From Pestalotiopsis fici W106-1 (taxonomy: Eukaryota > Ascomycota > Sordariomycetes > Amphisphaeriales > Sporocadaceae): a DNA stretch of 64,000 nucleotides. Location of the stretch: positions 434,001-498,000 of the forward strand of contig NW_006917096.1 in assembly GCF_000516985.1 (NCBI RefSeq). The letters are read 5' to 3'. Of the stretch, positions 10,801-14,465 are shown one piece after another. Positions within the stretch are counted from its first letter, which is position 1, and the number at the start of each line of letters is the position of its first letter. Position numbers and translations under genes: made by a program. The notes under the pieces are model-generated. The model had not been told where the DNA came from. It saw nothing but the letters and a program-made list of their open reading frames with translations, and ran no database searches.

Positions 10801-11877
10801 TTAGCCCATCAATACAGCACCAGCAATAGTGCCCTCCTTTCGCATCTGCTTGAGATCCAGATGCCTTAGCCTTGCCTCTTCCAACTTTTGCTCCGCTTCC
10901 GGGTTTCTCTCGAGTGTTATCCTTCTAACCTTGTCGATGAAAGACTGCACTGGAGGGTCCTTCTTGATAGCGTCTGACAACTGGACGAGGCAGCCCTTGG
11001 GGCCGGCTACGTGACCCTTGATTACCACGACGCCCATCTCATTGTCCACCTTCAACACCTTGAGGTTCTGCATCGTTACCCGCTCGCCACCCATGCGACC
11101 CGGCATCTTCTTGCCCGGGTGCACACGGGAACCACCGCCCTGACTCGGACCCGTCGTACCGATTGTTCTGTGGTTCTTGGAGTTACCGTGCGAAGCCTCC
11201 TGACCGGCGAAACCGTGCCTCTTCATACCACCGGCGAAACCCATACCCCTCGAGTTGCTCCGGGCGTCGACAAACTGTCCAAGCTTGAACCAGTCGGGCT
11301 GCAGCTGCACACCGACGGGCAGCAGGCCGTCGCGGTCGCGGACCTTGAACTCGGCGAGGTGGCGCTTGGGCGCCAGACCCTTGGCCTCGTAGTATCCCAG
11401 CATGGGGGCAGTCTCGTTGCCGGGCCGCTTGAGGCCGGAGCCGAGCTGGACGGCCCAGTAGCCGTTGCTGGCGCGGGTCTTGTTGGCGACAACCTCGACC
11501 TGGTCCATCTGCAGAACGGTGCAAGGGATGCGGCGGCCGGCCACGTACATGGCCGAGACGCCCTTTTTGACGGCCAGCACACCCGTGCGCAGCGGCGTCG
11601 TGGCTCTCTTGCGCTCCAGCGCCGCGGCGGGTCCCGCCGTGGGCGCCGGCAGGCCCGACGAGACCTGGTTGAATCGCGTTGGCTTGTCCTGCTTTGGCCG
11701 CGTCGACCAGCCGTACTTGACGCCTCGCCGGGCGGTCCGGGGCAATAGCGCGCTGCCGCTTTGAGTAATGAGGATTCTCGAGGATGCCGCCGTCGTCGAG
11801 ATGAGGCCGGTGGTGCAGGGCGACAGCAGGTGTGTCGGGAGGGCGGCTGCCCAGCGGGCTGGCATCCTGGGCGCCAT
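10801..11877 (-). CDS. MRPL9: Mitochondrial large-subunit ribosomal protein uL3m
   Basis: An intronless ORF of 358 residues, a component of the 54S mitoribosomal subunit near the peptidyl-transferase centre. Residues 1-50 form a typical Arg/Ser/Ala presequence. The body carries L3 family signatures: TGVLAVKKGVSAMY, the central extension GGMKRHGFAGQEASHG, and SRVHPGKKMPGRMGG, followed by the fungal C-terminal extension (VRRITLERNPEAEQ). The length fits the yeast MRPL9 family with its extra tail. It diverges from JLP2 across a 461-bp promoter region. No defects are seen. Long opposite-strand ORFs over this gene are frame shadows of its GC-rich codons. Confidence 0.95.
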   Translation of the reverse strand: MAPRMPARWAAALPTHLLSPCTTGLISTTAASSRILITQSGSALLPRTARRGVKYGWSTRPKQDKPTRFNQVSSGLPAPTAGPAAALERKRATTPLRTGVLAVKKGVSAMYVAGRRIPCTVLQMDQVEVVANKTRASNGYWAVQLGSGLKRPGNETAPMLGYYEAKGLAPKRHLAEFKVRDRDGLLPVGVQLQPDWFKLGQFVDARSNSRGMGFAGGMKRHGFAGQEASHGNSKNHRTIGTTGPSQGGGSRVHPGKKMPGRMGGERVTMQNLKVLKVDNEMGVVVIKGHVAGPKGCLVQLSDAIKKDPPVQSFIDKVRRITLERNPEAEQKLEEARLRHLDLKQMRKEGTIAGAVLMG

Positions 11878-12338: not shown

Positions 12339-13369
12339 ATGGTTTACTACTTTACCTCGACTGTGGTCTCCCCGTCCGCTTTTGTCTATGTCGGCAAGGA
12401 CAAATTCGAGAGTACGCAGGAAAACACCTTGTTGAGCCTCTGGGTATAGGACGAGCCGCTACTAATACCTTTCTTCTATAGATGAGGATCTGATCAAGTA
12501 TGGCTGGGAGCAAGATGTTTGGTAAGAGTTTGAACATTTTCAGCATCGTTACTTTTTCTTCTATCAATGCTTCTATTTCTACTCTGGATCAGCAAGACTA
12601 ACAGTCACTCTAAGGGTATGAGAACAAATCCTTCATTGGCCAGTTTTTACCTATAAAAACTGTAACCTGCTATAATAATACTCTTCCATTATTCTTCGGG
12701 ATCCTTACCATGAGTCTTTTTATTTTCGCAGTTCCACGCCGACAAGCTCTCATCGGCACACATCTACCTGCGGATGCCGAACGCAGAGGACTCGTGGGAG
12801 GCCATTCCCGAGGCGCTGGTGACGGACCTGGCGCAGCTCACCAAGGCCAACAGCATCGAGGGCAACAAAAAGGACAATGTGACCATCATCTACACGCCGT
12901 GGTCCAACCTGAAAAAGGACGGCTCCATGGCCGTCGGCCAGGTCTCGTTCAAGGACCCCCGCAAGGTCAAGCGCGTCCTCGTGGCCACGCGCGAGAACGC
13001 CATTATCAACCGCCTCAACAAGACCAAGGTTGAGAAGCAGCCTGATTTCATGCAGGAGCGCGAGGATATGCTAAAGGAGCGCAGGCGCAAGGACATGGCT
13101 GCCGTACAGGTTAGGGTGAGTTCTACTTTTTCATATATCCATGTATTTCGTGCTTGAAAAAACACAAACCTTTTCATTTAAACCAATCGAAAACATACGA
13201 CTAGTGCTAATATCGGTTACAGAAGAAGGAAGAGCAGCGCGTGGCCAAGGAGAGAGCCGAGAAGAAGTATCAAAAGGACCACGCCTATGATGATCTCTTC
13301 TCGGCAGACAATGTTGCAGCCTCTAGCAATCAGGATGTCGGATCGGATTGGGAGGATGATTTCATGTGA
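12339..13369 (+). CDS. JLP2: CCDC25/Jlp2 family protein (NFACT-R domain)
   Basis: Exons 12339-12411, 12482-12521, 12615 (one base), 12732-13115 and 13223-13369 give 214 residues, close to the usual length of about 208. The N-terminus MVYYFTSTVV, then VGKDKFENEDLIKYGW, DVWFHADKLSSAHIYLR and the C-terminal KKEEQR helix define the NFACT-R/DUF814 family. The region 130-190 is a Lys/Arg/Glu-rich coiled coil and the tail is acidic. Family knowledge: the domain is related to the RNA-binding part of NEMF/Rqc2, and the yeast role is undefined. The Trp of DVWFH requires one G between the TG ending exon 2 and the TTC starting the next large exon. The only canonical solution is a 1-nt exon at 12615. The alternatives are a non-canonical splice site or a sequencing error. 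Confidence 0.88.
12615..12615 (+). other. Predicted single-nucleotide exon of JLP2
   Basis: The base G is flanked by an acceptor TAAG (12611-12614, branch GACTAAC at 12596-12602) and a donor GTATGA (12616-12621). It supplies the third base of a conserved Trp codon. The flanking introns are 12522-12614 (93 nt) and 12616-12731 (116 nt). Confidence 0.6.
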
Positions 13370-13568: not shown

Positions 13569-14465
13569 CTACACTCCCGGCCCTCTTCCACCAATGCCAC
13601 TTCCCATGGCATTGACATTGGTACCCTTGATGCGGTGATCACTAGGGTTGGGCGCAGCCTCATAGGTAATGTTGATGGGGGCGCGGCCAAGCTGCATCCA
13701 CTCGCCCTTGAAGCCCAGGTAACTGAGACGAGTAACCTCGTCGTCGTCGTCATCATTGCCAAAGTTGTCCTCAAAGAACAACGTCAGGCTCTGCACTTTG
13801 CCAAACAGGGCGCGCCGGACCGGAAGCTCTTGCACGTCCGAGGTCTGTGACAGCTCAAATTCCTGCGTCGGCGCCAGCTCCGAGGCCGTCTCAAAGTCCA
13901 GATCCCGCCGGTTCACAAAGACCTTGAGCGTTCGAGGGGCCGAGGCTGATGGCGATGAGCGCAGGAGGATAGAGTGTAGCTTTACCTGGCCTGTGAATCT
14001 GTTTATTTTGTGGTTTTAGTGACCTTGAAAACTTGTAGAAACTAGAAACCAAGGCCCTAGTATTGAGTATTGAGATTATATTCTAGGTCATGGGCTTGCC
14101 CTAGATGAAATGCATTCCAGAAATTACTTCAAAGACTTGACTTTTCCACCCCACGAAAACCTACACAAAAGGATGGAGAATAAAAGAAATAAATAAACTC
14201 ACGGTACGCTCATAATAATTTGCTCATCGGCATCGCTCTCGAGCTCAGGTTGCTCCTGCGTGCGCTCCGCCCACGTCTTCTTGACAATGGCGCGGCCCGA
14301 GTCATCGACGGCCTCGTTCATGGTGTTGATGCCGTCAAAATCTATGTGCTGGTAGAGGCTGTACTGCAGGGCCGGTGTAATGTCGTCCGAGTGGTCGTGC
14401 ACATGGTCGTGGCCATCGTGGCCGCCGTGTGAGTGCTGGTGTTCGTCGTGGCAGTGGGTGGACAT
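13569..14465 (-). CDS. PITH-domain protein (PITHD1-like)
   Basis: Exons 14203-14465 and 13569-13998 (minus strand) give 230 residues. The first 30 residues are strikingly His/Asp-rich (HCHDEHQHSHGGHDGHDH), a possible metal-binding patch. The PITH (DUF1000) domain follows: SLYQHIDFDGINTMNE, then FTGQVKLHSILLRSS, KVFVNRRDLDF, VQSLTLFFEDNFG and the C-terminal LSYLGFKGEW and APINITYEAAPNPSDH. Family knowledge: PITH is the proteasome-interacting domain of thioredoxin-like TXNL1, and stand-alone PITHD1 proteins have been linked to proteasomes. The intron (13999-14202, 204 nt) is longer than most in this window. No thioredoxin domain is attached. It is convergent with JLP2. Confidence 0.92.

Follow-up and report, generated by a model that had tools for sequence, protein, structure and literature searches.

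The window analysed here, a stretch of 64,000 nucleotides, comes from the genome of Pestalotiopsis fici W106-1, an endophyte of the tea plant; the genome around it comprises 51.7 Mb in 20 contigs. A gene of the JLP2/CCDC25 family occupies positions 12339-13369 on the forward strand, and its product, if the single base G12615 is included, has 214 amino acids. Residues 1-113 of this restored protein match the NFACT-R_1 profile of Pfam (PF05670; 1.3e-32), and a search of the PDB with alignment A1 returned CCDC25 chains at 1.6e-71. The 384-nt long exon matches the P. fici genome only at its own position, and the gene is single-copy there. Upstream and divergent to it lies a reading frame at 10801-11877 on the reverse strand with a ribosomal protein L3 domain (PF00297), the product of which is perhaps a mitochondrial form. 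Downstream and tail to tail with it, a reading frame at 13569-13916 on the reverse strand matches the PITH domain (PF06201); just the end of the profile is covered, so that gene probably extends upstream via an intron. The parts of the JLP2/CCDC25 gene, with the basis of each call, are as follows.

12339..12411, forward strand: exon 1, 73 nt, opening with the start codon at 12339 (from translating the joined model)
12412..12481, forward strand: intron 1, 70 nt, GTACGC...TAG, branch ACTAAT (0 of 276 listed homologues length-disturbed here)
12482..12521, forward strand: exon 2, 40 nt, ending in TG, with which the Trp38 codon opens (sequence and translation)
12517..12522, forward strand: weak pseudo-donor GTTTGG, which would give the deposited protein without Val37-Trp38 (splice-site score and comparison with the deposited protein)
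12522..12614, forward strand: predicted intron 2a, 93 nt, GTAAGA donor, ACTAAC branch motif, AAG acceptor (splice signals)
12615..12615, forward strand: predicted exon of a single G, which ends the Trp38 codon TGG (sole DVWFHADKLSS solution, 1 of 67)
12616..12731, forward strand: predicted intron 2b, 116 nt, GTATGA donor, weak branch site, CGCAG acceptor (splice signals)
12732..13115, forward strand: next long exon, 384 nt, starting TTC CAC (translation; single genome match)
13116..13222, forward strand: last intron, 107 nt, GTGAGT...CAG, branch GCTAAT (1 of 276 listed homologues length-disturbed here)
13223..13369, forward strand: last exon, with the stop codon (joined model)

Exon 2, at just 40 nt, is itself a very small exon and stands directly before the predicted one-base exon.

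An earlier note on this DNA had drawn attention to the join between exon 2, which ends ...GTT TG at 12521, and the long exon that opens with TTC CAC at 12732, and we found both ends where it had placed them. It had also held that one G is missing if a single GT-AG intron is removed; excision of 12522-12731 does join TG to TTC, with a frameshift and early stops, and a single canonical intron between these ends was rejected on that ground. The signals that it had described inside the interval are all present, with GACTAAC...TCTAAG running to 12614, the G at 12615 and GTATGA from 12616; CGCAG ends at 12731. Removal of two introns, one of 93 nt before G12615 and one of 116 nt after it, restores the codon TGG, the frame and an intact protein of 214 amino acids. 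The G is flanked by AG and GT (AG-G-GT at 12613-12617) and lies between two complete introns, the other introns of the gene being 70 and 107 nt long. In intron 2a, 13 nt follow the A of the branch motif ACTAAC; the best branch candidate of intron 2b, AATAAT, matches at 5 of 6 positions and lies 53 nt from the intron end. Set against the Aspergillus nidulans intron consensus GURWGY/RYURAY/YAG, as quoted in PMC12403724, the weak points are the acceptor of 2a (AAG, not YAG) and the branch site of 2b.

Other splicing solutions were sought by systematic scans. Two-intron combinations, each intron being at least 40 nt long, were built from every GT donor (9) and AG acceptor (16) in the surrounding stretch; 67 stay open, of which one, 12522-12614 with 12616-12731, gives DVWFHADKLSS, and the remaining 66 were rejected for losing this segment. 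With donor 12522 and acceptor 12731 held fixed, G12615 is the one open mini-exon solution. A scan of single introns (GT-AG, GC-AG or AT-AC, donors 12482-12759, acceptors up to 12819) gave 17 in-frame alternatives that the earlier note had not mentioned; none keeps Val-Trp-Phe-His, and one, from the donor at 12517, yields the deposited protein. A GC-AG intron at 12503-12714 was rejected for replacing GWEQDVW, reading through the interval for its stops in all three frames, and a recursive splice site with a zero-length exon for the one G that separates the acceptor AG from the donor GT. The Trp codon requires that base 12615 be G, and G12615 is required for both the frame and the conserved residue, being part of the sole solution with DVWFH, a motif found as [VIL]WFH in 223 of the 276 listed homologues. 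The 13-sequence alignment in which the Trp is invariant was built from sequences chosen for WFH and is no independent test of this. The earlier reading of a one-nucleotide exon is thus supported as the sole canonical solution encountered under which the conserved protein stays intact, and by the homologue evidence given below. It predicts the mature join ...CAAGATGTTTG-G-TTCCACGCCGAC..., that is, GTTTGGTTCCAC in the RNA; GTTTGTTCCAC or GATTTCCAC would be joins that do not fit it.

The pentamer AGGGT occurs once in the interval. When the interval was shuffled 20,000 times with its dinucleotides kept, 1681 of the shuffles had AGGGT at a place that gave each intron 45 nt or more; it came together with a GTRNG donor in 85, and with this donor and a YTRAY branch site in 44, or 9 if the branch site was CTRAC instead. 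The pattern CTAACN{4,30}AGGGTATG, designed post hoc from sight of the site, is not enriched across the 51.7-Mb genome, with 11 places on both strands against 34 for a reversed control. Inspection by eye of the other 10 places revealed no evident second one-nucleotide exon; some, such as L002 and L008, resemble an acceptor with an open exon after it, and others have no evident frame.

Three protein searches returned 4480, 3474 and 3920 homologues, and the best 120 of each formed a union of 276 proteins, which represent clusters. In their joint alignment, we checked, for each intron junction, the length of a 7-residue stretch with the junction at its centre. Among the 276 listed, length was disturbed in none at intron 1, in 1 at the last intron and in 52 at the junction of the one-base exon; P0115 (Fusarium solani), disturbed there by a substitution (GE for VW), brings the total to 53, and the remaining 223 carry [VIL]WFH. 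Forty-nine of the listed proteins come solely from lgn, jgi and ena contigs, the longest contig being 907 to 5290 bases; because their frame is uninterrupted, we infer that they represent transcripts, and [VIL]WFH is present in all 49, including P0181, which at 196 amino acids is truncated at its start. The other 227 listed proteins were taken as genome-derived, and all 53 disturbed proteins fall among them, leaving 174 undisturbed. The CCDC25 chains in the PDB keep WFH as well, with Ile-Trp.

Disturbance is unevenly spread over the listed genome-derived models, the classes being assigned from genus names (five species were looked up and each was in the given class): 41 of 113 in Sordariomycetes, 10 of 72 in Dothideomycetes and 0 of 35 in Leotiomycetes, with Geoglossomycetes and Lichinomycetes at 1/1 each, Candelariomycetes at 0/3, and Xylonomycetes and one further assembly at 0/1 each. 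Fisher tests give 2e-6 for Sordariomycetes versus Leotiomycetes and 0.03 for Dothideomycetes versus Leotiomycetes, values that are rough because related sequences are not independent. Among the undisturbed models, which include all 35 from Leotiomycetes, either the arrangement is absent or it has sometimes been modelled right. Pattern scans for orthologue DNA with alignment A1 gave 245 matches in the genome contig collection and 281 in viral contigs, with no relatives in either. The disturbed Dothideomycete models are P0238, P0240, P0242, P0254, P0260, P0264, P0265, P0271, P0272 and P0274; the junction is also disturbed in P0266 (Geoglossum) and P0267 (Lichina), and these models from outside the Sordariomycetes mostly lack Val-Trp.

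The disturbances differ in what they reveal. In 35 of the 53 listed models, P0001 from P. fici included, Val-Trp is absent and the junction reads DFH; these are ambiguous, since the same deletion could result if those species had a GC donor following TGG. Fifteen others, all from Sordariomycetes, have extra residues after VW (10 models) or VC (5 models) and, judged by those residues, appear to imply a one-base gap at the junction, which would be a more specific sign than DFH. They come from Apiospora, Seiridium, other Pestalotiopsis, Colletotrichum, Sodiomyces, Remersonia and Clonostachys, which we take to fall in the Amphisphaeriales, Sordariales, Glomerellales and Hypocreales, the order having been looked up for P. 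fici (Amphisphaeriales) and Clonostachys byssicola alone. In 9 of the 10 models with VW, the Trp is followed by Tyr, Phe or Trp, all of which have T-initial codons, so that the genomic sequence would read TGGT, with a phase-2 TG/GT donor as in P. fici. Gln stands directly before Phe-His in the tenth, P0105 (PQ), and in P0005, P0006 and P0009, which would fit a CAG abutting TTC. By back-translation, the insert of the Apiospora model P0081, CKFQGMNNTH, may correspond to CAG-G-GTATGAA, and that of P0018 (CNSR) to a mini-exon ending in AGG before GT. The three disturbed models left over are P0115 (GE), P0254 (Q) and P0266 (NFVRR).

Closely matched pairs of database entries differ at this very place. 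The best database match of the reconstructed protein is the deposited P. fici W106-1 protein, PFICI_08620 (P0001), which is identical to it at 212 of 212 shared residues and lacks Val37-Trp38. Of 212 residues aligned between the contig protein P0002 and P0004, a model from Neopestalotiopsis clavispora, 211 match, and P0004 lacks Val-Trp and carries an N-terminal extension; P0208 and the Glonium stellatum model P0242, which lacks Val-Trp, match at 211 of 211; and Val-Trp is the sole difference between the Verticillium dahliae models P0020 and P0113. P0005 and P0006 are models from other Pestalotiopsis; insertions aside, P0003 agrees with the former at 210 and with the latter at 211 of 214 aligned residues. 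Both of these models read VCLLFSSSPQ at the junction, as would be expected if a pyrimidine-rich intron end with CAG immediately 5' of TTC had been read through. P0006 (Pestalotiopsis sp. NC0098) has an insertion at the last-intron junction too, resembling a retained intron, a second annotation error.

It is very improbable that the deposited protein is correct and that a single 215-nt intron runs from the GTTTGG donor at 12517, removing Val37-Trp38. Such an intron keeps the frame, introduces no stops and gives P0001 exactly, and the identical deletion is found in 35 of the 227 listed genome-derived models, P0001 among them; the donor is weak, however, matching the consensus at 4 of 6 positions, and Val-Trp, or Ile- or Leu-Trp, is kept in 174 of the 227 genome-derived and all 49 short-contig proteins listed, and as Ile-Trp in the CCDC25 of the PDB. 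The deletion occurs in 0 of 49 short-contig against 35 of 227 genome-derived proteins (Fisher p of about 0.001, for related sequences that are not independent), and the Pfam score is 103 bits for the deposited form against 113.1 bits for the restored one.

We regard as equally improbable an error of sequencing or assembly, or the recent loss of one base, whereby a G would have followed the true acceptor and one ordinary intron would suffice. A one-base change could explain the frame, and the published P. fici assembly was described as built with Newbler at 24.5-fold coverage into 52 Mb and 118 scaffolds (PMC4320822, which also names a P. fici RNA-seq data set, GSE60046), the genome analysed here having 20 contigs. 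Against this, 15 models from seven genera imply a one-base gap at the identical join, and AG-G-GT with its full branch motif would have to be a coincidence of the kind gauged by the shuffle test. Because of the homologue evidence, a base error or a lesion specific to the strain appears unlikely.

Even less credit is due to a single non-canonical intron, such as GT...CA at 12522-12730 or TA...AG from 12523, either of which gives TGG TTC. The arithmetic yields the right protein, but a canonical, fully signalled solution exists at the site, and lengths of 93 and 116 nt are close to those of the gene's other introns (70 and 107 nt), whereas 210 nt is not. To our knowledge, such intron ends are used by no established class of spliceosomal intron. 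The weakest contender is a stwintron, an arrangement whose internal intron cuts through a splice signal belonging to the external one; stwintrons are reported to be abundant in Hypoxylaceae and Xylariaceae and excised by two consecutive reactions (PMC12403724), but 2a and 2b each have their own complete, uninterrupted donor and acceptor. Neither intron breaks into a signal of its neighbour, and one base remains in the predicted mRNA, so a strict stwintron was rejected and serves as a mechanistic analogue.

We conclude that the JLP2/CCDC25 gene of P. fici very probably contains two ordinary spliceosomal introns one nucleotide apart, the G between them being a constitutive one-nucleotide exon that completes Trp38. 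Their positions in the coding sequence would be after TG (phase 2) and after TGG (phase 0). Ascomycetes are described as pairing splice sites by intron definition (PMC12403724), and we suggest that 2a and 2b are excised one after the other, each in this manner; the overlap of the acceptor of 2a with the donor of 2b suggests that the introns are recognised in turn and not together. Removal of 2a first would leave the intermediate TTTGG/GTATGA (GTTTGGGTATGAG in the RNA), and removal of 2b first would leave TCTAAG/GTTCCAC (CTCTAAGGTTCCAC). Each intermediate would be a normal substrate, and the one-base exon would thus never need to be recognised as an exon. Skipping of the G would produce a frameshifted mRNA, and use of GTTTGG would delete Val-Trp. 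The earlier note had called exons of this size extremely rare and a challenge to exon definition; their rarity stands, in that they are a known rare kind in the accounts of PMC4674806, PMC8831610 and PMC12940212, but the challenge need not arise if removal is stepwise.

The age of the arrangement can be approached through the homologues. We infer that it is older than the split of the sampled Sordariomycete orders. That it is ancient in filamentous ascomycetes, predating the separation of Sordariomycetes and Dothideomycetes, kept in many lineages and lost in, for example, Leotiomycetes, is a tentative proposal to which we would give somewhat less than even weight. The disturbed models from outside the Sordariomycetes hint at an older origin or at a different non-standard intron there; an origin before the Sordariomycetes is a lead only, because the Dothideomycete, Lichinomycete and Geoglossomycete cases belong exclusively to the ambiguous or unclassified kinds. 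Because annotation stumbles at this spot in many related fungi, the tiny exon looks old and widely missed.

JLP2 occurs throughout the sampled ascomycetes and so offers many natural variants for comparison; it makes testable both the order in which introns one base apart are removed and the origin of two introns one nucleotide apart. It also carries a warning for annotation, in that the conserved Val-Trp is absent or garbled in 53 of the 227 listed genome-derived proteins. Were the ancient origin true, no older one-nucleotide exon would be known from a fungal nuclear gene; the exon would also be a standing example of simultaneously occupied intron positions one nucleotide from each other, and a systematic, subphylum-wide source of error in deposited proteins.

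No report of a one-nucleotide exon in JLP2/CCDC25 was found in the literature as covered by titles and the starts of abstracts, with subscription journals largely outside that scope, and by the literature searched JLP2 apparently joins one other fungal nuclear gene in having a one-nucleotide exon of the spliceosomal kind. The nearest parallel is the exon of Fusarium CYP621A, called the first for a fungal gene (PMC12940212, 2026): as described there, the base is again G, AGGGT surrounds it, the gene is fungal and nuclear, the exon lies inside a conserved motif, and nearly all deposited gene models are wrong. That exon has support from RNA reads and belongs to a rarely expressed P450 reported from Fusarium/Nectria species, whereas the JLP2 exon is predicted from DNA and protein models and lies in the gene for a small NFACT-R protein, and several orders, perhaps other classes too, show signs of its gap. 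In Arabidopsis APC11, a single constitutive base between two introns is likewise essential for the frame, as proven by base substitution, but the gene is a plant one, the base is A and the interval is 422 nt (PMC4674806). The 1-nt microexons of plant APC11 and VPS55 are deeply conserved, as that of JLP2 may be, and like it are misannotated; they differ in gene and kingdom and in being verified by RNA-seq and RT-PCR, according to PMC8831610. Adjacent introns with one base between them are also described in fungi from the rnl gene of Ophiostoma/Ceratocystis, where they are mitochondrial group II introns and not spliceosomal (PMC12308204), and the one-nucleotide exon of placozoan cox1 similarly lies between two adjacent introns but, unlike that of JLP2, is mitochondrial (PMC5436844). 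Ascomycete stwintrons, as presented in PMC12403724 and PMC5639578, would resemble the JLP2 arrangement in undergoing two consecutive intron-defined reactions at one site and in defeating automatic annotation; they are nested and leave no base when correctly spliced, whereas the JLP2 introns would be neighbours that leave a G.
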